From a virus, in IMG/VR virus record IMGVR_UViG_3300020172_002521, positions 1 through 52,277 of that record: 52,277 bases of DNA; one strand, given 5' to 3'. Positions 30,545 through 50,612 of this stretch are shown here, piece after piece. Made by a program: the position numbers and the translations under genes. Numbering within the stretch: position 1 is the stretch's first letter; every line of letters begins with the position of its first letter. Under the pieces are notes generated by a model. The model worked only from the letters and a program-made list of their open reading frames with translations. It was not told where the DNA came from and made no database searches.

Positions 30545-30558
30545 GGTTCGCCTTTCGG

Positions 30559-32053: not shown

Positions 32054-32070
32054 GTTTTCCTCTCTGTGTA

Positions 32071-33191: not shown

Positions 33192-33207
33192 GACCCGGAT
33201 TTACCGA

Positions 33208-33927: not shown

Positions 33928-34661
33928 TTCTTTAACCAATCAGTTGTTTTATAAGGCTTGCCTATTTCTTTAGCGTTAGGCATGTAGTTAATTATTTTCT
34001 TCTTTAATCTTTTAATAACAATGTGATCATGATCATGATCAAATGCACGTAGGTATGATATAAAAGGATTATCGGCTTTCTTTTTATTTGATAGATCTGA
34101 ACTAAGATATTTGATAATTTTTTTCTGATCATTATGAAATTTATCAAGTAACTGACAAGCAATGTTGAAACTATAAGCATCTATTTCGTCAGGATGTCCT
34201 AGATAATTTTGTTCTGATCTTTGTCTGCCTGCTTGGGCTGTACTTAGATATCCGGGGATATCTATAAATCCTCTTCTACGATACTGTCGTGTATGTATAA
34301 TTTCGTGAAGCAGAGTATCTGCAAAACTAGCACACATTTTTTTAAAATCAGATTTTTGTATTTTGATAGATTTTGCACCTACATTAAAATGTAGGGTTAA
34401 TGTAATTGCTTTGAGATTTTTTCTATCCGGTCTCCCGTCATACAACCCGCCAATCCAAACACAGTTAGCGTCTGTAGTAGGACCGTATGAAGAACGTATA
34501 TGTATTGGAATTTGAAAGAACCGTATTATTTTTCTAATAATAGAAGTATAATTTTTAGGAGTTAAATTTTTTTGAATAACCATCGGACCTGCAAGGCTTA
34601 CCATCTCTATAACTAGATGCCTACTTAATTCAGACCAATCGTAGTGTTGTGCTTTGGTCAC
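33924..34661 (-). CDS. Zinc metalloprotease-like protein, paralogue B (245 aa)
   Basis: A 245-residue protein that starts at GTG (34659-34661) after AGAGGA. It carries LHEIIHTRQYRRRGF (HExxH) and HPDEIDAYSFNIACQLLD, matching both motifs of the downstream paralogue in order and spacing. 'DTL-HE-IH--QYR-R-F ... DEI-AY--NIA--LLD' is the shared signature. The N-terminal ~90 residues differ more. There is no signal peptide, so both would act in the cytoplasm or in the particle. Confidence 0.75.
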   Translation of the reverse strand: MTKAQHYDWSELSRHLVIEMVSLAGPMVIQKNLTPKNYTSIIRKIIRFFQIPIHIRSSYGPTTDANCVWIGGLYDGRPDRKNLKAITLTLHFNVGAKSIKIQKSDFKKMCASFADTLLHEIIHTRQYRRRGFIDIPGYLSTAQAGRQRSEQNYLGHPDEIDAYSFNIACQLLDKFHNDQKKIIKYLSSDLSNKKKADNPFISYLRAFDHDHDHIVIKRLKKKIINYMPNAKEIGKPYKTTDWLKK

Positions 34662-34703
34662 AGCGTTCCTCTGTTTTATGTAATTATCTAGAAAAAATCT
34701 CCT

Positions 34704-34721
34704 ATTAACTACACAGTTAAT
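34704..34721. repeat. Inverted repeat between metalloprotease and glycosyltransferase genes
   Basis: A perfect 7-bp inverted repeat, ATTAACT and AGTTAAT, with a 4-base ACAC centre, directly at the end of the glycosyltransferase gene and upstream of paralogue B. It may be a short hairpin or operator; no U tract follows. Confidence 0.35.
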
Positions 34722-35659
34722 TATGATAAAATATCTACCCAGCGATCAATAACATATTTCCAATCATAACTTTGTGCGTGATTCTGTATTTCCAAGCATC
34801 TTTGACGATATTTTTCAGGATTAGACTTGTAGTAGCTTAGTATTTCTACTGTGCGTTCTAAAAATTCTTTTTCTTCCGTAGGTACAGCATACCCGCCTTT
34901 ATCGCCAATTCTTTGATGCCAGTGCCCAACTGCGGTACTAATTACTAGTTTTCCGGCAGCACCGCCCTCCATAACTGGAAGACCGGCCCCTTCTTCTGTG
35001 CTAGCCGCAACTACAGCATCAATCATTGTATAAAATCCAGGCATGGTTACAAAACTATGATGGTAAGGCTGTGCTACCCTGAATTCAAGTCCGGCACGAT
35101 CTACTGCTTCTTTTACCAGCCAACCACGTTTGTGATACTTGGGCTGTGCTAGACTTGACTGTACCATATCTGGGCTAAATTCTTCTTTAGGATGAAACGA
35201 TCCAGTATAGCCTACAACCTTTAGGCTATTATTTGGTTTACTATAAAATGTGTTGCAATTGATAGCAACCGGAGTAAGTTCTGCAGGACGCTGAATTCCT
35301 AGTTCTTTACTAAGGTCAACAAGCCACTGACTGACACAGGCATAACGATAGAACTTATCAAAATCTTCGTATCCGTGGAAATGAATAAGTTCAGTCATGT
35401 CTAATTTAGCATGACTAATAATCACACACTGTTCTGGTTTAACAGTTCCGTAGTTGTAACCAAGGAATCGCCAACCGTGCGGAGTAGTTACAAATAAATC
35501 AGTGGTCTCATTCAGTTCTAACATTTCTTCTTTGGTATAACTAGTATTCCAGGGAAGTAGCTGACAATTGAATCCGTAGCCCCATAGGTACTTAAATAAT
35601 TCGTAATGTACTGTGCCAAATGCCCAGTTGGGCTCAAAGTAAAAAACTACTCGTTTCAT
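34721..35659 (-). CDS. Glycosyltransferase, GT4-like (312 aa)
   Basis: A 312-residue GT-B fold enzyme. The N-terminal domain starts [20 protein letters not shown]. The C-terminal nucleotide-sugar domain has [14 protein letters not shown] and the family-4 signature [19 protein letters not shown] (E-x7-E type), followed by STAVGHW. Shorter than a typical 350-400-residue GT4. It overlaps the upstream glycosyltransferase's stop as ATGA, so the pair is made together. Donor and acceptor cannot be inferred. Confidence 0.87.
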
Positions 35660-36810
35660 AGTGAAAGTCCGGGATGTGATCGTGCCAGCCAGTTCATATT
35701 TTCACGTTCTGGATGTCTTTCATACCAACCCTTGCCGCTATAAACATCGTAGACCATTTGAAAGTATTCTTCATACATAGGTGCTACGCGGTCGAGACTA
35801 AAGTTTTCTCCAAACCTGCGACAGTTAGCAGGATCAATTTTGTGAATATTCTCAGCAGCCCATATGAACTGATCAAAGGTTCTACAACGATAACCAGTAA
35901 CTCCTTGTATGTTATTTTCACTGAACGATCCCCAGTCAGTGGTAATAGTTGGAGTTCCGCTTAATAACATTTCGACTTGAACGCCACCAAATGGTTCTGT
36001 GTACAAACTAGGTGCAAATGCTCCTTTGGCACGACTCATTAGTCGTTTACGAGTAGGAACATCGGCATATCCAATGAACTCAACATGATCGGGGGTCTTA
36101 GCATAACCCATAGATGCTAGATTGTTCTGTCCAGCAATCTTAAGTTTAGCACCAATTTCTCTTGTTGCTTCAATGGCAATATGTGTGCCCTTACCTTCAT
36201 AGACACGACCTAAGAATAAGAAATAATCTTCTTTTTCTTCTGGTGCAAAGGTGAAGTCATCTAGGTCAAAGTAGTTAGGAATAACTGCATTGTACCAATC
36301 TTGATTACAAGTACCTACACTGTGTAATCCGAAATAGGCATGCATGATCGCATAGCTTTCGAATATTTTCCATCGTGCCCAATGTCCGCCTGCATATCCA
36401 ATACCTGGTTCAACACAGATCATATCTTCGTGAGCATCACAGATAGCACGAACACCTGAACCCCAAAATGGAAGAATAAAATCTTTAGGTTGTTTACGTA
36501 GACCTATTTCGCGAATAGCGTTTTTGTAGAATGTTTGATACGCATGGTCATTAGTATCAAACTTAAAGAAATTACTACGCCAATCATAACTGCCATAGGC
36601 AATTTCTAAATCTTTATTTGTACTAACAGTGACATGTTCGTCACAGACTAGATCACTTTCTTCATGACCGTAATGGATAATGTAGTGCCCACGCTCTTTC
36701 ATCATTTTGCCAAACTTGACTACTTTTTGAGTGTAGGCACAGGCGTTGTACTCTTTGCTTGATACAGTATGGGGTAACCCCAAGATATGGAAACGAAATT
36801 TTTGGCTCAT
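35656..36810 (-). CDS. Glycosyltransferase family 4-like (384 aa)
   Basis: A 384-residue GT-B enzyme. The linker/C-domain start [20 protein letters not shown] (the R-x-x-x-x-K phosphate-binding region), [20 protein letters not shown], and the nucleotide-sugar motif [20 protein letters not shown] (E-x7-E) plus TTDWGSFSE are all typical of GT4. No signal peptide. It lies 1 bp after the GT17-like gene and overlaps the following GT. Probable role: building a glycan on a phage structural protein, DNA or host surface. Confidence 0.92.
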
Positions 36811-36811
36811 A

Positions 36812-37666
36812 TTATTCTGCTGGTAAAAAATCTAACACGTTTTTAGTTGCACCATCAATAATAAAGCTCTGATATTTTTCTAAATTATTAACTACAGTGT
36901 TAGGGAAATAGTCATCAACTTCAACGTACTCGAATTGTTCGTTGTAGTTATTGGGATCAAGTCCTCGTTTGTTCTTTAACATTTCATCTAGGTTAAGATT
37001 TCCTAGGATATAATCGTTGTTAGTTTCGCGGTGTGCAAAACTTTGTATTTTATTTCGGACATGATTTTCATTACCGAAGTAAGAGAAGTGCCAACCTGCG
37101 TGTGGAATACTGCACTGAACTCCGTCATTGTAATCCCAAGGACGCTGCATTAGTCCTACACCCATGTTACGTATATCTTGTGGAGTTCTTAGGAATTTTT
37201 TTCTAACGCCTATAGCACCAATTAGTGTAGTATTAGGCTTGTGCATCATGTAGTTCAATTTAAAATAGAACAGGGGTATTCTAGTAGCCCACAATGAATG
37301 ATCTGACTCACGCATATATTCTAAAGCAGCATCTCGAACTAGTTCATCACAGTCAGAAACAATGATAACATCTTCATCTGTGGCATCAGCTAGACCTCTT
37401 GATAATGCGTTACGTTGAAAGTTTTCTGGAACCCAAGCGTTAGAGTCTGTGGGCATATCTTCTACTTTGATATGAATAATTTTATCAGCGTAGTCTTTGA
37501 ATCGATCCCAGTTCTGTTCTAATACGAATTCTTTAGGAGCACCTTGGTGTGTTGTATTGGCTTCTGCAATAACAAATTTATCTACATGGTTCCAGTGTTC
37601 TTGTAATCGTAATTCTAAAATGTCGAACTCATTATAGAATGTAAAGCAATCGTATATTTTTTTCAT
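36812..37666 (-). CDS. Glycosyltransferase family 17-like (284 aa)
   Basis: Starts at ATG 37666 ([20 protein letters not shown]); an in-frame ATG at 37690 falls inside the tRNA-Thr gene and is rejected. The opening '[15 protein letters not shown]', then [35 protein letters not shown] (metal-binding DCDE) and [10 protein letters not shown] are diagnostic of GT17, the family of beta-1,4-N-acetylglucosaminyltransferase III. GT17 genes are frequent in large aquatic viruses. The substrate in a phage is not known. Confidence 0.92.
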
Positions 37667-37679
37667 AGTATCTTTAAGT

Positions 37680-37753
37680 TGGTGCCCCACGACAGAATCG
37701 AACTGCCATCACAGGATTACAAAACCAGTGTACTGCCATTGTACTAGTAGGGC
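37680..37753 (-). tRNA. tRNA-Thr (anticodon TGT)
   Basis: On the minus strand a 7-bp acceptor stem (GCCCTAC with GTGGGGC), D stem GTAC/GTAC, T arm GGCAG-TTCGATT-CTGTC, discriminator A and encoded CCA. The anticodon loop TTTGTAA gives anticodon TGT (Thr, codon ACA). The anticodon stem (CTGGT/TCCTG) has two U-U mismatches, so it is weaker than normal. It has its own sigma70 promoter 22 bp upstream. Confidence 0.85.
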
Positions 37754-38726: not shown

Positions 38727-38978
38727 ATGACTATGACAAATATTGAACAAAGACTTATTGATATAATTAAAGATTACAGCAAGGTTGACTTTGATGTAGT
38801 TCCTGAAATGGATCTAATTTTTGATCTTGGATTTGACAGTCTTTCCTTTACTGAGTTAATAGTAGCATGTGAAGATGAATTTAAGATCGAAATAGAGATT
38901 GATAATTTATCAATGGAAGCATCTCGAACTATAAAAGGCCTAGCTACTGCTATTGAATCTTTACTTAGTTCGAATTAA
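38727..38978 (+). CDS. Acyl carrier protein 1 (83 aa)
   Basis: An 83-residue acidic four-helix carrier protein. The phosphopantetheine attachment site is Ser38 in GFDSLSFTELIV (D-S-L motif), preceded by the usual helix (EQRLIDIIKDYSKVDF) and followed by VACEDEFKIEIEIDNL. Length is like bacterial AcpP. The holo form would be made by the phage AcpS encoded at 40290-40670. It is the first of two ACPs in this region and converges on the desaturase gene, with an 18-bp overlap at the 3' ends. Confidence 0.93.
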   Translation: MTMTNIEQRLIDIIKDYSKVDFDVVPEMDLIFDLGFDSLSFTELIVACEDEFKIEIEIDNLSMEASRTIKGLATAIESLLSSN

Positions 38979-39752
38979 TTTGATGATCCAAAAGGTGGGA
39001 TCTAACTCCCACCATTTTTTACTATGATTTGAATTCTTCGGGTCAGCATGATGATTGTTATGCCAAGACTCCCCAAACAATACAAACCAAAGCCAAGGTA
39101 AATTTACACTATTATCATTAGTGTTAACATTTCTGTATCCAATATTTTTACAATGTGTTAAGCTAGTCTGCAATGAAAAACTATGAAATGTAATATATGC
39201 AGGTAAAATAATAAAATATAACCAAAGATTAATATCAATTAAGGCAATAATTATATTGCTAGCCCATAATATTTTAATATAGTGATTATGTAAAAATAAA
39301 CAAAATCGATCTTGTAACAAATGAGCAACTGACGTCCAGGTAGCAGTGTAATCTATATTATCTAATTTAAACATCCAGCCTATATAACTATGAAAAAAAC
39401 CGTGATTAGGAGTATGTAAATCTTTATCTGTGTCTGTATACCTATGATGATACCCTCGATGTATCGCTGTCCAAAATAGTGGGCTACCTTGTGCGGCCAT
39501 TGCTCCGAACCATAACATAACAATTTTAATTGGTCCGGATACTTTAAATCCTCTATGACTAGCGTATCGATGGTAACCGGCTGATATTCCTAACATATCT
39601 ATAAAAATAAATCCTAATATTGTATAGATATACCAAAAGGGTATTGGATTCAAAAATAAATTAATAATAGAAAAAGTTCCTAATATTAATAATGGAAGAA
39701 CAGCACCCCATAAATTACTCTGAGATATAATATTTTTAAATATTTTTTTCAT
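38961..39752 (-). CDS. Fatty-acid desaturase, Delta9 acyl type (263 aa)
   Basis: A 263-residue integral membrane di-iron desaturase. The three histidine boxes are intact: HRYASH (61-66), HRGYHHRYTD (98-107) and ESWHNNHH (228-235). Four hydrophobic stretches would cross the membrane. HRYASH-type box 1 and 'HRGYHHRYTDTDKDLH' box 2 place it with the stearoyl-CoA/acyl-lipid Delta9 group. I chose the ATG at 39752, which overlaps the upstream stop as ATGA, rather than one 60 bp upstream. It puts a double bond in a long acyl chain; whether on lipid, CoA or the phage ACP is unknown. Confidence 0.94.
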   Translation of the reverse strand: MKKIFKNIISQSNLWGAVLPLLILGTFSIINLFLNPIPFWYIYTILGFIFIDMLGISAGYHRYASHRGFKVSGPIKIVMLWFGAMAAQGSPLFWTAIHRGYHHRYTDTDKDLHTPNHGFFHSYIGWMFKLDNIDYTATWTSVAHLLQDRFCLFLHNHYIKILWASNIIIALIDINLWLYFIILPAYITFHSFSLQTSLTHCKNIGYRNVNTNDNSVNLPWLWFVLFGESWHNNHHADPKNSNHSKKWWELDPTFWIIKLIRTK

Positions 39753-40300
39753 TTGGTTCTCCAATCCTTTAATAATGATTGATTGCCGTGGTACATAATT
39801 TTTTGCCAACAAGTATCATCATTAATATTATTGCAGGTAAGATATAATTGACTATCGTATTCAAACAATATACCAATATGTTTCATTAAAATATCTTGTG
39901 CAAATTTTTGCCAATTATTATACTGCCTACTCATAAACACTAATTCAGCATTAAGATGCTGATAACAATAATTTAATTGAGTTTCTATCACGTTGCCAAA
40001 CATAATCATTCCATTACGTTTATCTAAAATAGACGAACGTTGATTTTTTATTTTCCAAAGTCTATTAGCTATCCTGAAAGTACTATTTGGCCAACATGGC
40101 CTCTGTAAAATACTACTACCAAAATACGGTTTATGATTCTGATCAAATGTTAATGAAATAGCAGAACATTCTTCAAATGATTCTTTTGAATAATTTTTAT
40201 ATAAATGGTGGGAAGTATCTTGATATTGTTCTTGTCTTAATTGCTCAAACAAGTCGTCTAATTCTTTATTAGTTCCGGCAGTCCAAATTTTAGTGTACAT
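39749..40300 (-). CDS. Unknown protein, possible GNAT-like acyltransferase (183 aa)
   Basis: A 183-residue protein between acpS and the desaturase, overlapping acpS by 11 bp and the desaturase as ATGA. The core AISLTFDQNHKPYFGSSI ... RPCWPNSTFRIANRLWK and a C-terminal QLYLTCNNINDDTCWQKIM segment give an alternating strand/helix pattern like the GNAT superfamily (which includes LuxI-type acyl-ACP-using synthases). Similar 'SSI--R--WP---YRI-NR-WK' proteins occur in T4-like phages. The fold is a guess; no catalytic residue can be named. Confidence 0.55.
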   Translation of the reverse strand: MYTKIWTAGTNKELDDLFEQLRQEQYQDTSHHLYKNYSKESFEECSAISLTFDQNHKPYFGSSILQRPCWPNSTFRIANRLWKIKNQRSSILDKRNGMIMFGNVIETQLNYCYQHLNAELVFMSRQYNNWQKFAQDILMKHIGILFEYDSQLYLTCNNINDDTCWQKIMYHGNQSLLKDWRTK

Positions 40301-40670
40301 ATTCTAATACAGCAGACGAAATCAAATAGTCGCCGTCATGGCTGACGCTGATATGGCATCTAAGGTTCTGCGCCATCTTACCTAGATAATTTATAAAAGA
40401 TGTCTGTGGTTGCCCTAGTGGAGATTTAGAAATTTCTATATTTTTCCAAACAACTATGCCAGCAATCCCAGTACCATAGGATTTAGCCACTGATTCCTTT
40501 ATACTCCAATGTTTGGCTAAGAATATAAATTTTCTAGCATCAATGCAAGAATAGTATTCTGCTAGTTCGTTGGCAGTAAGAATTCGTTTGGCAAAACGTT
40601 CCAATCTATTTGAATTCATAGATTGAAATCTTCTAAGATCAACAATGTCTATACCCGTGCCTTTTATCAT
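40290..40670 (-). CDS. acpS: Holo-[acyl-carrier-protein] synthase AcpS
   Basis: A 126-residue 4'-phosphopantetheinyl transferase of AcpS size. It has GTGIDIVDLRRF (Asp8 for Mg/CoA), FLAKHWSIKESVAKSYGTGI (Glu59, the second metal ligand; K-E-S motif) and HISVSHDGDYLISSAVLE, in the usual order. It moves the phosphopantetheine arm from CoA to the Ser of an ACP, here presumably Ser38 or Ser70 of the two phage ACPs. The ATG follows its -10 by 6 bp, so the mRNA is probably leaderless. It reads opposite to the Rieske-led operon. Confidence 0.95.
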   Translation of the reverse strand: MIKGTGIDIVDLRRFQSMNSNRLERFAKRILTANELAEYYSCIDARKFIFLAKHWSIKESVAKSYGTGIAGIVVWKNIEISKSPLGQPQTSFINYLGKMAQNLRCHISVSHDGDYLISSAVLEYVH

Positions 40671-40676
40671 ACTGTA

Positions 40677-40704
40677 ATTATACTTTTTTATTTTAGTCTG
40701 TCAA
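40677..40704 (-). promoter_or_regulatory. Sigma70 promoter of acpS giving a leaderless mRNA
   Basis: Minus strand TTGACA (40699-40704), 16-bp spacer, consensus TATAAT (40677-40682), then TACAGT and the ATG. Transcription should begin at or within a base or two of the start codon. Confidence 0.8.
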
Positions 40705-40742
40705 GATCCTGGTAAATATGCATCGCACTTCAAGGACCCGAT

Positions 40743-41564
40743 ATGTTTTTAGGACACCGTACAGATTTAGAAAATGGACAGATAAAATCATTAGATATTT
40801 TAGACGGCAAAAAAGTTTTGCTCAATGACAACGGAAGTTATAAACTAGGTAGTAATATTTGCCCCCACCAAAATAGTAGAATTGTTTCTGGAACTGCTAC
40901 AGAACTACGATGCCAGTATCACGGTTGGTCGTGGAATAATGACGGCAGTCCTCGAGATTCTGGATCCAGTAAAATGTGTAATGAAGCAAGACTTCATATG
41001 AAACCTGTACACGAATATAAAGGATTACTGTTTGCTGATGATATTGATCTATCAGTGTTGGACGATATATCTTTTGAAGATTTAGAGTTAGATGAATTTA
41101 GAGTCAATAGTTTAAATGCAGATCCAAAAATTAGTATGGATATCTTTTTAGATGTCGATCATATTCCTGTAGTGCATAACGGCGTCTACGACCTATTAGG
41201 CATTGAAGGCGAAGCAAATGTATCTTGGGACTTTAGAGACTGGGGTAGTGTACAGACTGTTACAGACGAGAAGAATAATAAAATTGCCCTTTGGATAGCG
41301 GTGTATCCTTATACTATGATTGAATGGCAATTAGGAGCATTATTTGTCAGTCAATGCTTTGACGATAACAAAATAGCAGTTTGGAAATACAAAGATAAAA
41401 CAGACTCTGATGAAAATTATAAAGTTAATTCTGATATGTGGGAAACAGCATTTGCACAAGATGTCATGCAAGCGGAACAAATGGTTAGATTCCCTACAAC
41501 AATCTACTTGGAAGACGCAAAGAAACACTACAGAGAGTGGCTGACTAATGCAATTAGTAGATAA
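40743..41564 (+). CDS. Rieske non-heme iron oxygenase (273 aa)
   Basis: A 273-residue protein with a complete Rieske [2Fe-2S] site: Cys40-x-His42 in ICPHQN and Cys57-x2-His60 in RCQYHGW. The catalytic mononuclear iron site follows the D-x2-H-x4-H rule: Asp137, His140, His145 in LDVDHIPVVHNG. The third carboxylate could be in YLEDAKKHY near the C-terminus. It is shorter than ring-hydroxylating alpha subunits (about 340-450). It likely oxidises the acyl product; electrons must come from host or another phage reductase, as none is encoded here. First gene of the plus-strand operon, with AAGGACC before the ATG. Confidence 0.93.
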   Translation: MFLGHRTDLENGQIKSLDILDGKKVLLNDNGSYKLGSNICPHQNSRIVSGTATELRCQYHGWSWNNDGSPRDSGSSKMCNEARLHMKPVHEYKGLLFADDIDLSVLDDISFEDLELDEFRVNSLNADPKISMDIFLDVDHIPVVHNGVYDLLGIEGEANVSWDFRDWGSVQTVTDEKNNKIALWIAVYPYTMIEWQLGALFVSQCFDDNKIAVWKYKDKTDSDENYKVNSDMWETAFAQDVMQAEQMVRFPTTIYLEDAKKHYREWLTNAISR

Positions 41565-42447
41565 CAATTATCTTAGAAGTTGGGGCAATGGACCTACCTG
41601 GACTGTGGAGATTGATCCACCACGCAGACCTGTAAGAAGTTATTATGAAGAAACACTAATTGCCGCAGAGATGCTATGGGAACGTAAACAGGGCAAACTT
41701 CAACTCTGCTATAGCGGCGGGCTTGACAGCGAATATGTACTCAGCATACTTTTAAAATTTGGTATGACTGTAGAAGTAGTGATCATGCGTACACAATACA
41801 ACCATCATGAGACACAATATGCTTTTAAATTCTGTGAAGCTAAAAATATCACTCCTACAGTTGTAGATTTAGACTATGATAAATTTGTCGAGTCTGGTCA
41901 AATGTTATCCATTGCAGAATCAATTAAATGTGCAGCATATCAAATTCCCTGTAACATGTGGTTAGCTAGTCAACTCGACGGCACTGTAATAACAGGCAAT
42001 GATCCACCTCATTTAAAATTAAATCCCAAAGATAATTTATGGTATCTCGATGAAGAAGAAGTTATACATAGTCAGTTAACTTATTGGAAAAAAAATAGCC
42101 TAGAAGGAACACCATTTTTTCTAAGTTATACTCCAGAACAAATGTTAGCTTTTCTTATTGATCCTACAATTGAAAAATTAGCCAATCATGAGTTTCCTGG
42201 GAGGCTAGGAACTAATTCATCAAAGGTTCATGTGTTTAACAGAGGAACCGGATTTAATCTAGAACAACGAGTAAAGCAGCACGGCTACGAACATGTAGAA
42301 ACAAGTTCGATATTTCAACATCCAGATATGCAGACAGTTATGTCATACAAAAATAAATGGCTAGGAACGTCAGATCATCAATATCATAAAGTTGTAAAAA
42401 CTTTATCTTCCGGGTTGACTTCTACAGCAACAACATCTATAATGTAA
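41548..42447 (+). CDS. PP-loop ATP pyrophosphatase (asparagine synthase/ExsB-like, 299 aa)
   Basis: A 299-residue protein with the PP-loop SGGLDSEYVLS (about residue 56-66), which binds ATP and releases pyrophosphate while adenylating a carboxylate or similar group. Next come VEVVIMRTQYNHHETQYA and a conserved-looking VITGNDPPHL. There is no glutaminase domain, so an ammonia or amine donor must come from elsewhere. The fold is that of the C-terminal domain of asparagine/beta-lactam synthetases. Overlap with the Rieske gene is 17 bp. Inferred role: amide bond formation on the acyl product; a thiolation role is also possible. Confidence 0.82.
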   Translation: MQLVDNNYLRSWGNGPTWTVEIDPPRRPVRSYYEETLIAAEMLWERKQGKLQLCYSGGLDSEYVLSILLKFGMTVEVVIMRTQYNHHETQYAFKFCEAKNITPTVVDLDYDKFVESGQMLSIAESIKCAAYQIPCNMWLASQLDGTVITGNDPPHLKLNPKDNLWYLDEEEVIHSQLTYWKKNSLEGTPFFLSYTPEQMLAFLIDPTIEKLANHEFPGRLGTNSSKVHVFNRGTGFNLEQRVKQHGYEHVETSSIFQHPDMQTVMSYKNKWLGTSDHQYHKVVKTLSSGLTSTATTSIM

Positions 42448-42449
42448 CT

Positions 42450-43010
42450 ATGGCAAAAAACTTTATATACTTAGATTGCCCAAATCAGGAAATTATAGCT
42501 AAAAAATCTTTAGAGTACCTTAGTACAACAAAATGGCTATCGACTGTTGCTCATTGGCGTGGACCAATTAACGGTAGCGAGTTAACACAGTTATTAGACA
42601 ATGTTCCTGAATTGGTCGAATGGCTCGATAGCCTACATCTGCAGCCTGCCCAATTTTGGATAATAGGATATTTTGCTACATCTAGCATACATCTCGATTC
42701 TGGTATTCCATATCCTAGAATAAATTTTCCTTTAATTAATACTGTAGGAACAGCCATAACAGAATTTTATGATATAAAGAATATGGAAAAAATTGAACAT
42801 AAAGATTGGGGAGTACCGTTTTGGTATTTAAAATATAATCCAGCCGATGCGGTAATGATCGATTCCTACGAATTAACGCAACCAGTTGTATTCAATCCAG
42901 ATATTCCACATCGAGTAAGGTTCGATACACCAATGTCTCCGGCAAATCCGAGATTGGCTTTCTCTATGTATTTTTATAATCCGCCATACCACATGCTAGG
43001 CCTAGAATGA
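42450..43010 (+). CDS. Fe(II)/2OG dioxygenase-like protein (186 aa)
   Basis: A 186-residue jelly-roll protein. SSIHLDSG supplies His-x-Asp, NPDIPHRVRF the distal His, and PRLAFSMYF the Arg expected to bind 2-oxoglutarate. The layout matches Asp/Asn-hydroxylase-like phage oxygenases. It lies between the PP-loop gene (2 bp gap) and fabZ (ATGA overlap), firmly inside the acyl operon. A tailoring hydroxylation is inferred. The same layout recurs in the protein at 50952-51542. Confidence 0.8.
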   Translation: MAKNFIYLDCPNQEIIAKKSLEYLSTTKWLSTVAHWRGPINGSELTQLLDNVPELVEWLDSLHLQPAQFWIIGYFATSSIHLDSGIPYPRINFPLINTVGTAITEFYDIKNMEKIEHKDWGVPFWYLKYNPADAVMIDSYELTQPVVFNPDIPHRVRFDTPMSPANPRLAFSMYFYNPPYHMLGLE

Positions 43011-43471
43011 AACCATTATCATCGCAAGATATTTTATCAATACTTCCACACCGTTATCCGTTTCTAATGATAGATCGAGTATTAGACTACGATGCAACAA
43101 CTATAACAGCGGTTAAAAACTTTACCATCAACGAACCCTATGTACAAGGACATTTTCCAGGTAACCACATTATGCCAGGAGTTATGATGGTTGAAGCCAT
43201 GGCACAGGCCAGTACTATTTTAGCATTCAAATATGTTGAGGACGTAATGCCTTCGGAAGATTTTTTCAAGTATATGGCCAAAGGTGCCGGAATACTATTT
43301 GTGGGTGCAGACCAGGTTAGATTTAAAAAGGTGGTATTACCCGGAGAGCAACTGATAATTTACTCTACGCTGACGAGAAATGCTAGAAATATTTTTGAGT
43401 TTGATGCTCGAATTGAAGTAGATGGAATAATTGTCACCGAAGGCAAACTAAAAGCACTCGGCGGAGTCTAA
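43007..43471 (+). CDS. fabZ: 3-hydroxyacyl-ACP dehydratase FabZ
   Basis: A 154-residue hot-dog fold enzyme. LPHRYPFLMIDRV near the N-terminus, catalytic His49 in GHFPGNHIMPGVMMVEAMAQ and Glu63 in the same block are exactly those of FabZ. It removes water from 3-hydroxyacyl-ACP to give trans-2-enoyl-ACP. Normal FabZ length (~145-155). The start overlaps the oxygenase stop as ATGA. It needs a ketoreductase upstream in the pathway, which this window lacks. Confidence 0.96.
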   Translation: MKPLSSQDILSILPHRYPFLMIDRVLDYDATTITAVKNFTINEPYVQGHFPGNHIMPGVMMVEAMAQASTILAFKYVEDVMPSEDFFKYMAKGAGILFVGADQVRFKKVVLPGEQLIIYSTLTRNARNIFEFDARIEVDGIIVTEGKLKALGGV

Positions 43472-43528
43472 GTCCACGTCTGTTATCAGTAAGCTAACGT
43501 TTATTTAAATAATTATATAGGAGATACT

Positions 43529-43906
43529 ATGAGTACCGAAAATTGGACACCCCGTTCTGAAGAAGAAGTTGAGCGTAGATTTATTGAAATGATCAACGTT
43601 TATCTCAAACTAGAGTTAGAATACCCACTTCCTCCAGAGATGAATATTAAAGATTTGAAAATTGTTAATAATAACGAGATTCAAAATCTTCCACCAGAGC
43701 TGTTTGAATTAGAAAAGAAAAATCTTGAAATTGATAGCATCGACATTCTTGAACTAGTAATTCAAGTTGAAGAAGAATTTGGCGTGGTTATTGACGATCA
43801 AGAAATTCCAAAGTTACTAGCATGGAAAGACTTGATTGGATATATTACAGATAGTCAAGAACCACCAAAACAAAAAACATCACCATCGACTACACCTGCC
43901 CCATGA
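43529..43906 (+). CDS. Acyl carrier protein 2 with N-terminal extension (125 aa)
   Basis: A 125-residue carrier protein. The phosphopantetheine site is Ser70 in LEIDSIDILELVIQ (D-S-I), followed by VEEEFGVVIDDQEIP. Compared with ACP1 it has about 30 extra residues at the front (STENWTPRSEEEVERR) and a Pro/Thr tail (PPKQKTSPSTTPAP). ATAGGAGA precedes the ATG, and a TTAAATA late-like core lies ~25 bp upstream. It overlaps the ketoacyl synthase start as ATGA, which suggests the two work as a pair. Confidence 0.9.
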   Translation: MSTENWTPRSEEEVERRFIEMINVYLKLELEYPLPPEMNIKDLKIVNNNEIQNLPPELFELEKKNLEIDSIDILELVIQVEEEFGVVIDDQEIPKLLAWKDLIGYITDSQEPPKQKTSPSTTPAP

Positions 43907-45078
43907 AAGATATCTATATAGTCGACTATCGGGTGCATGATTCTCTTGGAAACAATGTAGCATCTAACTACGAAAATATGCCCTTGTCAAAAGGTCCGCA
44001 GACAATAACTAGATATAATATTAACGATTATCCTTACATTTTAAGCACTAAAGGATTCCAGGCCGAATATATGGAGAATGGCCACTTATCGTACAAGACA
44101 GCAGTAAACATTACCAACGAATATCTCGAGAACTATAATAATGATTTATTCAAGGATAGTGTAGTGAGTGTTGGATCTTTTGCAATTAACTCTGCGATAA
44201 GAGAAGATTTTTATAAGTCTATGGATGATCATAAAAATCGTTACAGTCCTAGTAGATTATTTTCTAACAATCACGACTTATTGTCTGCATTAATATCTGG
44301 AAAAACAAAATCAGAAAACATGAATGTTAGTGTAAACGCTGCTTGCTCTAGCAGTATGTTTAATCTACATTTTGCATCAATGTTAATACAAACTGGCCAG
44401 ACAAACTCTGCTCTTGTTGGTGCAATAGATCATTCATTAAATCCTACTCTGCAATATTATTGGCAGTCATCAAGTGCATTATCAAATGCAGGCGGCGGAA
44501 CATCAAAACCTTTTGATAAGAATCGAGACGGGTTTTTACAAGGCGAAGGCGGTACCATTTGGTTTATCTGTGATGAAGAAACACTGGTAAAATATAATCT
44601 TAAACCAAAGGCAAAATTAAGATCAATTGCCAGCGGTGCTAAATTGACTAGTATGACTGCTCATGATAGAACTTGTGAAAATCAGTTAAAGATTATTAAC
44701 CAAGCATTGAAGCAGGCTAACTTAACTCCAAAAGATATTGCATTTTTTAATGCACATGCTACTAGTACACTAGTAGGCGACGATATTGAATTAGATGTCT
44801 TTCAACGTGCATTTGAAGGTGTAGATATTCCTATTGTTGGGTTTAAAGGTTACATAGGGCATACTATGAGTGCCTGCGGGTTAATTGAAGCAGCCTACGG
44901 AATAGAAGCAGTTAAGAACGGATACTTACAACCAAACTTTTCTTTAGACAATCCCCTTAGTGATGATCCTAGACTAATTACTAAGAAGACTGATTTAAAA
45001 GGAAATATCTTTATGAAAGCAAGTTTTGGCTTTGGTGGTCGAACTTCTATTGCTATCATAGAGTCATTAGAAGGATAA
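43903..45078 (+). CDS. Beta-ketoacyl-ACP synthase (KAS/FabF-like, 391 aa)
   Basis: A thiolase-fold condensing enzyme. Active site: Cys148 in VNAACSSSMF, His285 in FFNAHATSTLVGDD, Lys315 and His320 in GFKGYIGHTMSACG. PFDKNRDGFLQGEGG and a C-terminal KASFGFGGRTS (KS 'N-FGFGG-N' variant) are also present. The Cys-His-His set is that of decarboxylating KAS I/II, so it should extend acyl-ACP with malonyl-ACP. Slightly short (391 vs ~410) and with an unusual N-terminus (MKDIYIVDYRVHDSLGNN), so it is a divergent family member. Paired with ACP2 by ATGA overlap. Confidence 0.94.
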   Translation: MKDIYIVDYRVHDSLGNNVASNYENMPLSKGPQTITRYNINDYPYILSTKGFQAEYMENGHLSYKTAVNITNEYLENYNNDLFKDSVVSVGSFAINSAIREDFYKSMDDHKNRYSPSRLFSNNHDLLSALISGKTKSENMNVSVNAACSSSMFNLHFASMLIQTGQTNSALVGAIDHSLNPTLQYYWQSSSALSNAGGGTSKPFDKNRDGFLQGEGGTIWFICDEETLVKYNLKPKAKLRSIASGAKLTSMTAHDRTCENQLKIINQALKQANLTPKDIAFFNAHATSTLVGDDIELDVFQRAFEGVDIPIVGFKGYIGHTMSACGLIEAAYGIEAVKNGYLQPNFSLDNPLSDDPRLITKKTDLKGNIFMKASFGFGGRTSIAIIESLEG

Positions 45079-45081
45079 AAA

Positions 45082-45906
45082 ATGCCAGATAAAAGAGTTG
45101 TAGAACTTGTTAGGAATACAGTTGGCAGAAATAGCTGGGCCAACGAGCAAAGGACGGCTTATCAACATTTTGATCCTCAATACAATTTTCCAGATTGGTA
45201 CCTTAAAGAAATACATAGGATGAATAAAAAATATCGTCCTATCCGATGGATTCCTTTAGATGTTCCAAAATTTGAAATTGACATGGCAGAATTTATGGAC
45301 ATTTGGGATCGAGAAAATATTGATATACTTAGGACAGGTACTGATGCAGCAGAACCGTGGCCAAAGGAAGCCCATCCATTAGGCAAGGCCAGTAATTGGT
45401 ATAACCCACAATTTAAGGGACTTGATTTTTATACCTATAATAAAGATAATTTCCTAGAAACAAAATGTATGGGCTGGTCAGCGAAATTATACGAACATCC
45501 GTTGTTCACACCTATTATTGAACAAATTAAAGATACTCTTCCTTTCCAAATAGTTAGCCATTTGTATATATGGGAAAGTGTACGTGAAGTTTATCCACAT
45601 CGAGATGACGATTATTTTTGGGATATGCCAACTATGTTTCGTATTATGCTCAATGATGAAAACACACAACCGACATTATATGTTTGCGATGTAGATCACG
45701 GAGATCTACATTATATTGATCCTCCTCCCGAGACTAATACATTTGCATGGTCAAACGGTTCTCAGATTCACGGTAGTGATTTTCACGGAAAGAGAAAACA
45801 AATAATATGTATCAATGGAGTTTTCCATCCTAAAAAATACGAAGAATTAATGGATCGGAGTATTGAGAAATATCAAAACAAACTCAATTACAAATTAGAA
45901 ATGTAA
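45082..45906 (+). CDS. Fe(II)/2OG dioxygenase-like protein (274 aa)
   Basis: A 274-residue protein with a C-terminal jelly-roll region: EVYPHRDDDYFWDMPTMF gives His-x-Asp, and GSQIHGSDFHGKRKQIICIN gives the distal His and Arg/Lys region. The N-terminal ~120 residues contain WTPL-like aromatic segments (RPIRWIPLDVPKFEIDM, AEPWPKEAHPLGKASNWY) of unknown role. It starts 3 bp after the ketoacyl synthase gene, so it ends the acyl operon. Most likely a tailoring hydroxylase. Fold assignment is from motif spacing only. Confidence 0.72.
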   Translation: MPDKRVVELVRNTVGRNSWANEQRTAYQHFDPQYNFPDWYLKEIHRMNKKYRPIRWIPLDVPKFEIDMAEFMDIWDRENIDILRTGTDAAEPWPKEAHPLGKASNWYNPQFKGLDFYTYNKDNFLETKCMGWSAKLYEHPLFTPIIEQIKDTLPFQIVSHLYIWESVREVYPHRDDDYFWDMPTMFRIMLNDENTQPTLYVCDVDHGDLHYIDPPPETNTFAWSNGSQIHGSDFHGKRKQIICINGVFHPKKYEELMDRSIEKYQNKLNYKLEM

Positions 45907-46239
45907 AAATTGATCAGTGTCGACAAACTGAATTTTAACTCCAGTTTCTTTACTTAATGATTGAATCATTTCCCATAAATTTACAGTCTGTAGATCGGTT
46001 GCATATACATCAAAATTTTCTTTACTGTCAAATACAACCTGACTGATAATTTTTGCAGTATTTTTATATTCAATTAATGTATGAGAGTTGTATAAAAATC
46101 CTGGCCGTTCGGCTAGTTGAGATCTAATTGTGGCATACATAGGATTATGATACAAAGCATCGGCCCAAGCTCTCAATTTTGGACCAGGCCGTTGTTCTGT
46201 TTGATCAACAATAGTAGTAGTAGATACCCTTGCGTACAT
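45895..46239 (-). CDS. Small dimeric-barrel-like protein (114 aa)
   Basis: Starts at ATG 46239 (MYARVSTTTIVDQTEQRPGP) with AAAGGA upstream; a longer in-frame start lacks a site. The strand/helix pattern ending in QVVFDSKENFDVYATD, then a helix and VKIQFVD resembles antibiotic-biosynthesis-monooxygenase (ABM) type alpha/beta barrels of ~100 residues. The two plus-strand genes at 46314 and 47295 have a similar pattern and size. A GTAAATA late-like core is upstream (46266-46272). ABM folds include polyketide cyclases and monooxygenases, but no catalytic residue is evident here. Confidence 0.6.
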   Translation of the reverse strand: MYARVSTTTIVDQTEQRPGPKLRAWADALYHNPMYATIRSQLAERPGFLYNSHTLIEYKNTAKIISQVVFDSKENFDVYATDLQTVNLWEMIQSLSKETGVKIQFVDTDQFLHF

Positions 46240-46313: not shown

Positions 46314-46652
46314 ATGTATACCAGAAAATATCGATTAGTCTGTACAGAAGGACCTAAGATGAAAAGATTTAAAGTAGTAACTACACAAAATCTTTCATTC
46401 AGTCAAATGATGAGGAGATATAACATCCCTACATCCGGACTGGTTAATGTAGTCGACGACCACTTTGATGACGAACGTTGGGAAATTACTTCAGAGTGGG
46501 AAAGTAAAGAAGCATTTGAAAAATCACAACAGCATCCTTATAGAAAAATGTTTTGGACACGCTTTGAATTAGAGTGTCACCGACACGGTATTAGATTTTT
46601 TATTACTGATGGTGATACCGGCGAGGAGACTGAACCATTCTCATTCGACTAA
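46314..46652 (+). CDS. Small dimeric-barrel-like protein (112 aa)
   Basis: Starts at ATG 46314 after AAAGGACGGC (MYTRKYRLVCTEGPKMK). The WEITSEWESKEAFEKSQQHP segment (strand, 'S-K-E-A-F' helix) followed by FWTRFELECHRHGIRFFI matches the ABM-like layout of the divergent gene at 45895. It overlaps the following minus-strand gene by 12 bp at the 3' ends. Probably a paralogue of its neighbour. Function unknown. Confidence 0.6.
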   Translation: MYTRKYRLVCTEGPKMKRFKVVTTQNLSFSQMMRRYNIPTSGLVNVVDDHFDDERWEITSEWESKEAFEKSQQHPYRKMFWTRFELECHRHGIRFFITDGDTGEETEPFSFD

Positions 46653-47243
46653 TACTCCCATTCGTATAGATATCGGAATAGGCCATGTACGATCAGTTAA
46701 TAATTTTTGTTGGTATTCGTATTTTGGTTCTTCTCCGGGAGAGAGATTACAATCCGTTGTAAATCGATATCTTGAAACTCTATAACCTTGTCTGCCCATC
46801 CATGCAAATAATCTTTCCCCAAAACCAGCAGATTTTAATGTATTATCTTGTCGGTTTTCATAAACAACAAAAAATCTACTAAGTTTCCTATTAATTTCCA
46901 TTTCGTCAAATAACATTTGATCCCACTGCCTAAACGCTTTAGCACCTTCAACAGTGTACATTTTGTCATGATGACCGTCACTGATCCAATATCCCCAGGA
47001 CCAGCTAGGAGATCCCGAAAACTCTTTGCAAATTAGAGCTCCAAATAATTTTCCGTTGACAAATATTCCAGGAACATAATATAACGGATCTTTAAAATAA
47101 TTTGGAATAATTTTTTCCATTTCATTATTAATAGTATATTTTAGTTGATCATCTGTGTAACCGTTAAATGTATATGGTCGAGACTTCATTAACTGTAATA
47201 ATTGTTCGCAATCGTTTATATTAAGAGTTCTATTTTCTATCAT
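46641..47243 (-). CDS. GNAT-like unknown protein (200 aa)
   Basis: Starts at ATG 47243 (MIENRTLNINDCEQLLQLMK). The order of strands (YVPGIFVNGKLFGALICKEF, SWGYWISD), a helix (AFRQWDQMLFDEMEINR), then SRFFVVYENRQDNTLKSAG and GYRVSRYRFTTDC is like GNAT N-acyltransferases, as in a family spread through T4-like marine phages. No acetyl-CoA loop (Q/R-x-x-G-x-A) can be seen clearly, so activity is uncertain. Divergent from the gene at 47295. Confidence 0.55.
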   Translation of the reverse strand: MIENRTLNINDCEQLLQLMKSRPYTFNGYTDDQLKYTINNEMEKIIPNYFKDPLYYVPGIFVNGKLFGALICKEFSGSPSWSWGYWISDGHHDKMYTVEGAKAFRQWDQMLFDEMEINRKLSRFFVVYENRQDNTLKSAGFGERLFAWMGRQGYRVSRYRFTTDCNLSPGEEPKYEYQQKLLTDRTWPIPISIRMGVLVE

Positions 47244-47294: not shown

Positions 47295-47657
47295 ATGAAA
47301 AAAATAATTATGACATTTGAAATGAAAAATCAAGAAGTGCTTGGAATTATGTATAATTCAGTTGACGTACACGCATTAGATACTGAATGTTTATCCGAAA
47401 TTGAAACTGAGTATTATGCTACACAAGACTATCATCGATTCGAAGGACATTGGTTTTTTGAAGATGATGCAGCATACGAGACTTGGTACGAACAACACGG
47501 AGCACTTAGAGACGAGCATCTTGCATCTCTTTTGGAATACCTTGAAGTAAACGAAGTAACTGTGAAAACTTATTCTGAGATTGAAAATTCTCGTATGCCA
47601 GGTGCATTACCATTCGATCAGTACGTTGGACTTCCTAATTTAATGCGAATGAGATGA
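47295..47657 (+). CDS. Small dimeric-barrel-like protein (120 aa)
   Basis: Starts at ATG 47295 (MKKIIMTFEMKNQEVLGIMY); AAAAGGATTG precedes it. FEGHWFFEDDAAYETWYEQH then a helix and EVNEVTVKTYSE give the same strand-helix-strand pattern as the genes at 45895 and 46314, so it may be a third ABM-like member. It is followed, with ATGA overlap, by the 398-aa fusion whose N-terminus has the same pattern. Function unknown. Confidence 0.6.
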   Translation: MKKIIMTFEMKNQEVLGIMYNSVDVHALDTECLSEIETEYYATQDYHRFEGHWFFEDDAAYETWYEQHGALRDEHLASLLEYLEVNEVTVKTYSEIENSRMPGALPFDQYVGLPNLMRMR

Positions 47658-48850
47658 TATTAGTAACTGATGATTTTTCTGAATCTTGGCAGAAAGAAAA
47701 AATAAATCAGAATTTTTATATTGTATACAATTTAGCTAGAACTGAAGTTCCTAGAACTGCATATAATATCAGCGATGTAATCTATCTATATTCGTTGTTA
47801 TTGAAAGAACCAGGTATTGTTAATATCGAATACCACGAGTCTAACGATAAACTATTTCAAGAAATACGAGTTATATGGTGGAATAAAAAATATTACCAAG
47901 ACTGGGCCAACACTCATAGTGATCAATATAAAAACTTAACAGATTATTTTGATCAATATAAAATACAACATAACATTGAATATGAACGTATTACTTCTGA
48001 TGAAGGATATGTTAGTGAGTTTCCTTATATCGAATATCCTAAAAAGAACGAGTTAGTTAGTTGGACGTTAATTGATTTTTATAAAGAGTATGTAATAAAA
48101 AATATTATTCCTTTAGGCGTATATAGGGGCGTGTATTTAGGTAACGGTGATTTTGACGATCCTAAAAAGCAGCCGGGAACTCTCTCAGGAGCTAGATTCA
48201 TGAAAGAAAGAACTAGCAGTATAGTGCGGAATCCAGAGAACAGAAATAAAAATATAAAAAACTTTCCCTGCAAGGCCCTGTCATACACGATCGATCATGC
48301 TGTTCAAGTAGCGATGTATGATGCTCCTATAGTTTATAAAAGATTTAGTAAACTTGTAACTGATGTAGAAAAATTTGCAGAAACATATATATCAGAGTGT
48401 ACTCAGTCTGCGGTTAATTTTGGCCACAGCTCATTAGGATCACAAATACTTACACATACACACCAGTTATCTAATGATAAAAGACTAACATTAACAATAG
48501 CAGTTAGACTCACATTTCACGATAAACCTGTAACATATAAATTTTGGAATCCTATTGACGATCTTGATCCAAATTTAGACAAATATTACGGATCGTCTGA
48601 TCTTGTAGCAGAGTACATAGACAATCAAACACCAATAGAAATACAATCAGAATATCGATCGAGTGTGTTGGTGTTTAACGGAAGTTATACCCCACATACT
48701 GTAGAATTTAATAATGATATCTATATGTACTTTGCCTACGATAATGTAGTATTCAAGCCTGATGCTTTAGAAAAGATAAAGCAACAAAGCGAAAGGTCTG
48801 CTTTCACAGACCTCGAAGAAGAAAAACATCTATACTTCTTTAACTTTTAA
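47654..48850 (+). CDS. Barrel-like domain fused to a 2OG-oxygenase-like domain (398 aa)
   Basis: A 398-residue protein. The N-terminal ~110 residues (IVNIEYHESNDKLFQEIR, VIWWNKKYYQDWANTHSDQ) match the ABM-like pattern of the preceding small gene. The C-terminal ~150 residues look like a jelly-roll oxygenase: ILTHTHQLSNDKRLTLTIAV, then FNGSYTPHTVEFNND for the distal His. Unlike classic 2OG enzymes it shows His-x-His in place of His-x-Asp. A two-domain tailoring enzyme is inferred; motifs are only suggestive. Confidence 0.6.
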   Translation: MILVTDDFSESWQKEKINQNFYIVYNLARTEVPRTAYNISDVIYLYSLLLKEPGIVNIEYHESNDKLFQEIRVIWWNKKYYQDWANTHSDQYKNLTDYFDQYKIQHNIEYERITSDEGYVSEFPYIEYPKKNELVSWTLIDFYKEYVIKNIIPLGVYRGVYLGNGDFDDPKKQPGTLSGARFMKERTSSIVRNPENRNKNIKNFPCKALSYTIDHAVQVAMYDAPIVYKRFSKLVTDVEKFAETYISECTQSAVNFGHSSLGSQILTHTHQLSNDKRLTLTIAVRLTFHDKPVTYKFWNPIDDLDPNLDKYYGSSDLVAEYIDNQTPIEIQSEYRSSVLVFNGSYTPHTVEFNNDIYMYFAYDNVVFKPDALEKIKQQSERSAFTDLEEEKHLYFFNF

Positions 48851-49202: not shown

Positions 49203-50612
49203 TTAGATATCGTAGCGTGGGACCATTATAGTCTTAAGCATGATGCCTTCTGGAGTGAACTGATCCAAATCAGCGGCTAGCAAGCTAGTCATGATTGATG
49301 GACTAAATCCACTTACCAATGCGGCACCACTCTTGTCAGCGGCCACAGGCACATTGTCTGAACTGTTTAGGTTCCAGAAAACAATCTGTGGCATGTTGTA
49401 GCCAGCGGCTTCGAACTTACGTCCGATCATTTCCATTGCGTTATCGTCGAAACGGGCGCATTGGTCAAACTGCATGTCTGACAAGATCAACAACATCTTT
49501 GGCATGTCGCTTTCTGGGACTGATCCCTTAACTGCAACGTCTAGGATTTTACTCATAGCCGCATGTAAGTTAGTGCTCATTTCCCAGTTGCTCTTAGACA
49601 TTTGGGTTACCTTGTCAACAATGTTACCCTTTAGAGTAACAAGTTCTGGCTTGCTAGAGAAAGTTAAGAATGTGTCCTTGAACACGCCCTTGTTCTTGTC
49701 TGCTAGATACAAGCCCAGGCTAACTGCTACGTCCAAACAACGAACGCCGGTGTTCTTACCTGCGGCGCAGGTCATAGAACCACTTACGTCAACTAGAGGT
49801 AGGATACTTGCGTCACCTACGTAGTTTGGCAGAGCGTCCCATTGTGCAATGACATGATCTGCTTCAGTCTTGTCAAACTTCACATATGAGTGTGCAATAC
49901 CCTTCAACACATCGTGTGGGTAAATTGCCGAAGCATTTACCTTAACAGTTGGGTCCTTGGCAACCAACTTAGCTACATACTCAGCGAACGCTGGGCTGTG
50001 ACGGTTGAATGCCTTCTTGTATTGGCGAGCCGCTACAGAAGGAACGTGTGAGAAGTTAATGTTGTCCCAGTCGTTGGCACACATTTGTGTTTCAACAACC
50101 TTGGTAAGACCAACTAAACTCTTACGGTATTGCTTTGGAGTCATTCCGAAGAATGTTCGGATTTCTGCGGCAATTGGTCCCTTGCGAGGAGTCCACTTTG
50201 CAGCCAATCCATTACTTTCACGAAGGGCATTACCCAACATTGTGTAAGCGGCTGACTTCAACTGCTTTGTTTCAAAGATAAAGATGTCGTCCCAACGTCC
50301 AACTTCTGGAACCTTGGCCAATAGACTCAAAGCTGCCTTTGGGTCACGCTTTTCTAGATGTACTAGAATATCGCGGAACAGTTGACGTTCACCTGCACCA
50401 CCACGGACATCACGTGCCCATTGTGCGATGCGTAGTGCTAGGTCAGAGTTTTCCACATAGGCGGCAGTGAAGTCGCCTGTGATGTCCTTACCACGGCTTG
50501 CACCGATCTTGTAGAACAGGTCAACTGTAGCCTTAGCTGTTGACTTACGAGCCTTCATGCCGTTGGCAGTACGGGCTTCTTGATTTGCTACTGCTGTTAC
50601 AAATGCGTTCAT
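49203..50612 (-). CDS. DUF2828/TROVE-like von Willebrand factor A protein (469 aa)
   Basis: The N-terminal ~265 residues follow the DUF2828 pattern: TANGMKARKSTAKATVDLF, then helices with VPEVGRWDDI, AAKWTPRKG, QYRKSLVGLTKVVETQM and FSHVPSVAARQYKKAF. The C-terminal vWA domain has an intact metal (MIDAS) site: DVSGSM (275-280), a Thr in STNLHAAM and Asp in ILSDMQFD, then QIVFWNLN. DUF2828 is related to the TROVE/Ro60 fold that binds small RNAs, so RNA binding or protein scaffolding is possible. Base composition looks richer in GC than in neighbours. It has a near-consensus sigma70 promoter far upstream and its own terminator. Confidence 0.88.
   Translation of the reverse strand: MNAFVTAVANQEARTANGMKARKSTAKATVDLFYKIGASRGKDITGDFTAAYVENSDLALRIAQWARDVRGGAGERQLFRDILVHLEKRDPKAALSLLAKVPEVGRWDDIFIFETKQLKSAAYTMLGNALRESNGLAAKWTPRKGPIAAEIRTFFGMTPKQYRKSLVGLTKVVETQMCANDWDNINFSHVPSVAARQYKKAFNRHSPAFAEYVAKLVAKDPTVKVNASAIYPHDVLKGIAHSYVKFDKTEADHVIAQWDALPNYVGDASILPLVDVSGSMTCAAGKNTGVRCLDVAVSLGLYLADKNKGVFKDTFLTFSSKPELVTLKGNIVDKVTQMSKSNWEMSTNLHAAMSKILDVAVKGSVPESDMPKMLLILSDMQFDQCARFDDNAMEMIGRKFEAAGYNMPQIVFWNLNSSDNVPVAADKSGAALVSGFSPSIMTSLLAADLDQFTPEGIMLKTIMVPRYDI

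Follow-up and report, generated by a model that had tools for sequence, protein, structure and literature searches.

The virus record IMGVR_UViG_3300020172_002521 (IMG/VR) was analysed over positions 1 to 52,277, a stretch referred to here as the window. From 38,727 to approximately 48,850 the window carries some fifteen genes that we read, with a probability of roughly 0.6, as a phage-encoded, acyl carrier protein (ACP)-based biosynthetic cluster that would make a modified acyl-amide lipid or small molecule. Gene identities, active sites, two protein folds, gene linkage and selection were computed. A preliminary description of the same DNA had proposed a phage acyl biosynthetic cluster; gene order, active sites and selection bear this out, and every open reading frame that it named lies where it had been placed. 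The cluster is, however, larger than proposed, the preliminary description having overlooked the 183-residue protein HYP183, previously unassigned and absent from its gene list, and a 3' extension to approximately 48,850 that adds ABM-like, GNAT-like and 398-residue proteins (Table 1).

Chain-building genes and their linkage

The products of the ACP1, desaturase, AcpS, Rieske, FabZ, ACP2 and beta-ketoacyl synthase (KAS) genes match Pfam families at or above the curated cut-offs, the PP-binding score of ACP2 falling right at its cut-off. The active sites of KAS, FabZ, the two ACPs and AcpS, described earlier as intact, are conserved in all distinct phage members, a count in which the window and contig L002 are merged on a shared exact 80-mer. 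KAS retains C148, H285, K315 and H320 in 14 of 14 members and FabZ its catalytic H49 and E63 in 10 of 10, while the phosphopantetheine sites D69-S70 of ACP2 (10/10) and D37-S38 of ACP1 (15/15) and residues D8, K58 and E59 of AcpS (14/14; Asp8 and Glu59 being the metal ligands) are equally invariant. Among more specific models, FabZ scores 151.4 bits against NF000582 (cut-off 113) and 145.3 against TIGR01750, just under its 155.15, and AcpS passes TIGR00516 with 86.9 bits against a cut-off of 59.8. KAS reaches 147 bits against TIGR03150 (fabF), far below the cut-off of 494; from its sequence we regard it as a ketosynthase but not as a FabF equivalog.

Viral contigs were scanned with the KAS, PP-loop, ACP2, 2OG_B and HYP183 families. 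Nine distinct IMG/VR contigs have FabZ, ACP2 and KAS side by side in this order (the window, L002, L003, L006, L007, L010, L028, L030 and L147/L151, the last two counted once since they are identical over the stretch compared). KAS identity to the window is 94% in L002 and 55-65% in L003, L006, L007, L010, L028 and L030. All nine core contigs also carry AcpS, HYP183, desaturase, 2OG_B, hyp128, hyp133 and GNAT-like genes, the left part of the L006 block being read from L131, which is the same contig. The PP-loop gene is present in every core contig but L007, and gene maps place the Rieske gene in the window, L003, L010 and L147; L002 has no Rieske gene and carries 2OG_A and 2OG_B in duplicate. 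The comparison of gene neighbourhoods that the preliminary description had named as a check thus finds the same order in independent contigs. Among the fetched loci FabZ and ACP2 never occur outside the FabZ-ACP2-KAS set. Many contigs hold HYP183, desaturase and PP-loop genes, often with Rieske or 2OG genes, yet lack KAS, FabZ and ACP2; the record of L161 (354,959 bases) has ACP1 and AcpS and no KAS match. For this reason KAS-FabZ-ACP2 looks like an add-on that would supply an acyltransferase-desaturase module with its own dedicated acyl chain.

These distributions bear on the view that the locus is a loose set of independent auxiliary metabolic genes gathered in a variable region with no common pathway. 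The surrounding content does vary, with Rieske, UbiB, SDR and radical SAM genes coming and going, and phage variable regions tend to gather oxygenases. Nevertheless, nine contigs with the same core order, overlapping genes, purifying selection and the exclusive co-occurrence of FabZ, ACP2 and KAS leave this view very little credence.

Selection was estimated by comparing the window with L002. Values of dN/dS (NG86) are 0.04 for KAS, 0.02 for FabZ, 0.03 for ACP2, 0.05 for the PP-loop protein and 0.02 for hyp133, all of them rough since synonymous sites approach saturation in several genes. At the sequence level these values are those of strong purifying selection on KAS, FabZ, ACP2 and the PP-loop gene. 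ACP1, the desaturase and HYP183 are 51-52% identical between the two contigs, amid KAS, FabZ and ACP2 at 94-98% and an adjacent methyltransferase at 95%; ACP1, desaturase and HYP183 therefore vary jointly as one cassette. Stable elongation genes together with changing ACP1-desaturase-acyltransferase and oxygenase genes suggest diversification of the product.

HYP183, the desaturase and the tailoring enzymes

An AlphaFold model of HYP183 built with seven phage sequences (pLDDT 88.8, pTM 0.86) finds its best Foldseek matches among GNAT acyltransferases (E from 2.1e-5). Structural alignment with VIA-align lists Z scores from 11.8 to 9.4, headed by 1xeb (Z 11.8, 141 residues aligned at 3.8 A) and including LasI (Z 10.5, 154 aligned, 4.6 A) and FeeM (Z 10.1, 146 aligned, 4.2 A), whose scores are tied with those of many ordinary acetyltransferases. 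As modelled, HYP183 has the GNAT acyltransferase fold, a fold that says nothing about substrate. Neither Pfam nor a PDB sequence search gave a convincing relative. A desaturase gene on the same strand lies at most 250 bases from 36 of 50 HYP183 genes, near-copies included, and mostly overlaps them; when contigs are grouped, a desaturase shares the stretch in 30 of the 32 groups that carry HYP183. HYP183 occurs as a single double-length open reading frame, probably a fusion, in L153 (9980-11155) and L154 (9971-11149), and as a tandem gene pair in L148, L149, L159 and L163. The desaturase itself matches the NCBIfam DesA family at 1.1e-14, below cut-off, and its three His boxes, already recognised in the preliminary description, are present in 83 of 84 relatives. 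With an alternative in-frame ATG at 39752, it would overlap the gene upstream by 4 bp.

The Rieske protein had been called complete. Its C40, H42, C57 and H60 ligands together with H140 and D240 are conserved in 15 of 15 members, but H145 is found in only 9 of 15; its profile matches ring-hydroxylating oxygenases (1.4e-7) and SxtDIOX/SxtT. The two proteins described as 2OG-type oxygenases have no Pfam match individually. As a family of 40 members, however, they share an HxD...H motif, with H81 in all and D83 and H154 in at least 90%, and 3 of the 40 give a weak Asp_Arg_Hydrox match (best 0.0059). Sequence searches with hyp133 returned no significant match, and it was structure that gave its fold: the AlphaFold model (pLDDT 87.9) resembles ABM proteins in Foldseek (E 2.8e-5), and VIA gives Z 8.3-8.0 for ABM, EthD, SnoaB and ActVA-Orf6, the value of 8.3 corresponding to 3.1 A over 89 residues. 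By this model hyp133 has the ABM/DABB ferredoxin-like dimeric barrel fold, which serves quinone-forming monooxygenases, polyketide cyclases and many other proteins; any enzymatic role is putative. The 398-residue protein has neither a Pfam nor a PDB match and is left unassigned.

The PP-loop protein matches Pfam QueC at 0.00098, below cut-off, whereas a profile of 26 members matches NH3-dependent NAD synthetase, a member of an amide-forming enzyme class, at 3.6e-8 (3p52). This match and an SGGxDS motif conserved among members support the earlier PP-loop ATPase assignment at the level of the family, and by sequence the protein falls in the N-type ATP pyrophosphatase superfamily, being NAD-synthetase-like rather than NAD synthetase itself. 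L021 carries, at 5095-10879, several tandem PP-loop paralogues together with HYP183 and genes for a Rieske protein and a desaturase.

Resemblance to QueC in 16 of the 26 members, the QueD-like gene at 20748-21254 and the glycosyltransferase block at 34-38 kb are what one would expect if the locus modified nucleic acids, glycans or proteins (phage DNA, tRNA or the glycans that these neighbouring glycosyltransferases produce), the acyl genes supplying the attached group. QueC itself is ruled out, since its CxxCxxC zinc motif occurs in 0 of 63 PP-loop members. In many contigs, moreover, PP-loop and Rieske genes accompany HYP183 and the desaturase, and we know of no DNA or tRNA modification route that employs membrane desaturases or ACP, KAS and FabZ. 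We therefore consider such a modification quite improbable.

Remodelling of membrane lipids, whether of the host or associated with the virion, would change chain length, unsaturation or hydroxylation or yield aminolipids, with no diffusible product. OlsC and LpxO are oxygenases of the Asp_Arg_Hydrox type that hydroxylate lipids. Desaturases of the FA_desaturase family abound, some loci having several; OlsB-type GNAT N-acyltransferases (PF13444) make bacterial aminolipids (PMC11631085); and cyanophage desaturases are known, as cited in PMC8224337. The Rieske, PP-loop (often multicopy), ABM-like and repeated 2OG genes nonetheless exceed known remodelling, and no second O-acyltransferase of the OlsA/PlsC type was recognised in the cluster, which makes remodelling unlikely as an account of the whole locus.

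Phage context and gene layout

The record of L147 comprises 364,554 bases and encodes a T4-type major capsid protein Gp23 (8e-100), with KAS at 234139-235314. Among deposited phages its capsid protein comes closest to three, being 72.6% identical to that of Sinorhizobium phage Phosso, 70.1% to that of Vibrio phage 2.275.O and 67.8% to those of the CBB/GAP32 jumbo phage group, and the window itself carries collagen-like tail fibre genes and a head maturation protease gene. The preliminary description had raised the possibility of a chimeric assembly with bacterial DNA. Since the block recurs in nine contigs, one of them this 364,554-base record with its T4-type capsid gene, chimerism is excluded.

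Deposited phages gave no relatives of the PP-loop protein or HYP183, and their KAS and FabZ matches are all below 60% identity; several of these, in records named after Listeria, Enterococcus, Staphylococcus or Salmonella, look like bacterial contigs. A DNA-level search returned no match. When the KAS profile was run against 84,980 bacterial and archaeal genomes, the best 80 matches were generic ketosynthases, the closest at 32% over 242 residues, and bacterial origin of the whole cluster was rejected on these matches. In a quick KAS tree the nine phage sequences form one clade (support 100) on a long stem; L126, L127 and L170 join it unsafely, as long branches meet there. Because bacterial matches are generic and the phage clade is long-stemmed, the cluster, as judged from sequence, was not recently copied from any bacterial cluster sampled. 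A separate phage KAS lies at 9173-11237 of L170 between ClpS-like and haem-oxygenase-like genes (by eye), apart from the PP-loop/HYP183 module that this contig also carries.

Table 1 Genes of the cluster, with window coordinates, strand and basis of assignment.
Gene or product	Position	Strand	Basis
ACP1, acyl carrier protein	38727..38978	+	Pfam PP-binding 1e-11; phosphopantetheine site D37-S38
Desaturase-like membrane protein, three His boxes	38961..39812	-	Pfam FA_desaturase 1.3e-14
HYP183, GNAT-fold, proposed acyl(-ACP) N-acyltransferase	39749..40300	-	AlphaFold, Foldseek, VIA
AcpS, holo-ACP synthase	40290..40670	-	Pfam ACPS 3.3e-17; TIGR00516
Rieske non-haem iron oxygenase-like	40743..41564	+	Pfam Rieske 2.1e-12
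PP-loop ATP pyrophosphatase (N-type), proposed amide-/adenylate-forming	41548..42447	+	SGGxDSE motif; profile match
2OG_A, putative Fe(II)/2-oxoglutarate oxygenase, Asp_Arg_Hydrox-like	42450..43010	+	Family HxD...H
FabZ, 3-hydroxyacyl-ACP dehydratase	43007..43471	+	Pfam FabA 3.8e-28; NF000582
ACP2, N-terminally extended acyl carrier protein	43529..43906	+	Pfam PP-binding 20.8 bits; site D69-S70
KAS, beta-ketoacyl synthase, phage-only clade	43903..45078	+	Pfam 2.5e-19 and 8.4e-18
2OG_B, putative Fe(II)/2-oxoglutarate oxygenase	45082..45906	+	Family HxD...H motif; all core contigs, often duplicated
hyp128, small, ABM-like by eye	45895..46236	-	All core contigs
hyp133, predicted dimeric alpha/beta-barrel (ABM-like)	46314..46652	+	AlphaFold and fold searches; all core contigs
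GNAT-like protein	46641..47243	-	Acetyltransf_3 0.0062 in best member, below cut-off; all core contigs
hyp151, small, ABM-like by eye	47295..47657	+	Profile relatives in several core contigs
398-residue protein, C-terminal HxH...H pattern, oxygenase-resembling	47654..48850	+	H268/H270/H348 conserved in relatives' alignment

The plus-strand run from the Rieske gene to 2OG_B is joined, as the preliminary description had it, by short overlaps (17, 4 and 4 bp) and gaps (2, 3 and 57 bp). G+C content is 0.347 in the cluster and 0.403 in the rest of the window, a difference on which, taken alone, we place no weight. A block of nucleotide-sugar epimerase, glycosyltransferase (groups 1 and 17) and methyltransferase genes at 29400-37690 adjoins the cluster and suggests a phage-made glycan; a DUF2828/DUF7788 RNA-binding-like protein gene at 49203-50612 flanks it, with 82-89% identity in several related contigs. 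The QueD-like gene encodes a predicted 6-pyruvoyl-tetrahydropterin synthase, and four tRNA genes are present in the window: Thr(tgt) at 37680, Arg(tct) at 49038, Arg(tcg) at 51581 and Thr(ggt) at 51679.

Further genes accompany the cluster in its relatives. An ABC1/UbiB atypical kinase gene (7.6e-74) lies inside or beside the block of L006 at 14833-16218, and UbiB-like proteins, of a family linked to ubiquinone synthesis, were recognised by sequence in L010, L028, L030 and L147; L003 has radical SAM proteins (Pfam). TctC-like periplasmic binding protein genes are found near the cluster in L028 (16703-17623, Pfam) and L127 (11818-12699, by eye). These UbiB and TctC genes hint at a host among ubiquinone-using Proteobacteria. 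In L007, genes for IscU (NifU_N) and IscA-type iron-sulphur assembly proteins adjoin the cluster at 4690-5560 and could support the iron enzymes.

Proposed pathway and related systems

In the biosynthetic pathway that we propose, AcpS would place phosphopantetheine onto the phage ACPs and KAS would condense host malonyl units onto ACP2. The reductions would fall to FabG/FabI-type enzymes of the host (in some relatives to an SDR of the phage) and the dehydration to phage FabZ, giving an acyl chain specified by the phage. The desaturase may then modify this chain, and HYP183 may take the acyl group off ACP1 and attach it to an amine to give an N-acyl compound, in the manner of FeeM, OlsB and LuxI-type enzymes. 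The PP-loop, Rieske and 2OG enzymes and the ABM-like proteins would amidate and oxidise the N-acyl compound, which plausibly targets the membrane, signalling or competitors. The acyl-amide product suggested in the preliminary description becomes more plausible with the predicted GNAT fold of HYP183 and the match of the PP-loop profile to NAD synthetase, although we infer the product itself, just as we do the order of steps, acyl-ACP as the substrate of HYP183, the accepting amine and the benefit to the phage.

Several observations weigh against this pathway. Among the open reading frames of the window cluster no ketoreductase, enoyl reductase or malonyl transferase was recognised (open reading frame list, Pfam), and the SDR matches elsewhere in the window, at 20.5 and 30.3 kb, are partial and lie at nucleotide-sugar epimerase genes; the window cluster is not a complete type II fatty-acid synthase. 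The absence of these enzymes had been reported before and holds for the window cluster; for ketoreductase it does not hold across the whole family, as an SDR lies within the cluster block of L003 and L007 and L141 has one by sequence. The fold match of HYP183 cannot tell acyl-ACP from acetyl-CoA enzymes, and its 27 members, highly diverged, gave no Pfam match to GNAT, OlsB/FeeM (PF13444) or autoinducer synthase (PF00765) families. The desaturase could work on membrane lipids instead of the pathway, and the ABM and 2OG assignments are at the level of fold or motif.

The phage KAS, FabZ, ACP and AcpS have the same catalytic residues as bacterial type II fatty-acid synthesis (FabF/FabB, FabZ, ACP, AcpS), from which the cluster differs in lacking the reductases and FabD, in carrying tailoring genes and in its phage-only KAS clade. 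Highly reducing or non-canonical type II polyketide synthases, such as those for aryl polyenes (PMC8358021) and cispentacin (PMC10698177), likewise combine a small stand-alone ketosynthase, a FabZ-like dehydratase, an ACP and tailoring enzymes. In contrast to these, the present cluster is phage-borne, and no second ketosynthase-like subunit without the Cys (chain length factor) was seen, each contig giving one KAS match; the phage KAS scored 124 bits against the AmcF model, below cut-off. With the producers of FeeM N-acyl amino acids, OlsB aminolipids and LuxI-type signals (PMC11631085) the cluster shares a GNAT fold near ACP and AcpS genes, whereas HYP183 has no detected sequence similarity to those families. 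By analogy, acyl-ACP N-acylation of the FeeM/OlsB/LuxI type and small stand-alone type II polyketide synthase systems would be the nearest working models.

Fatty-acid synthesis genes have been reported in other phage-assigned DNA, and single desaturases are also known from phages; neither case has the present set. According to excerpts of PMC8224337, Rhodobacteraceae prophages carry fabG-acpP-fabF; that set differs in including FabG and in following the order of the host fab operon, and the excerpts describe no AcpS, FabZ or tailoring genes with it. The T4-like Pelagibacter phage Mosig (MT647606, locus L042) has a desaturase gene next to genes for an Asp_Arg_Hydrox protein and an N-acetyltransferase, but no annotated ACP, KAS, FabZ or AcpS, and its desaturase is 27% identical to that of the window. 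No description of a comparable gene set in phages was found in the open-licence literature, in agreement with the preliminary description. Single lipid and ACP genes are known in phages; an acyl assembly line of several enzymes, conserved and under selection, is new within the libraries searched.

More tentatively, and on balance as something we doubt, T4-like jumbo phages may possess their own diversifying acyl-ACP natural-product clusters, with a phage-specific KAS clade and a new GNAT family, making N-acyl compounds for conflict between phage and host or between phages. If true, this would constitute a class of virus-evolved secondary metabolism without a bacterial counterpart cluster. If a molecule is made, bacterial viruses would count among the makers of dedicated natural products, the compounds would be new chemistry, and its possible roles in the membrane, signalling, competitor exclusion and defence evasion would have to be considered.

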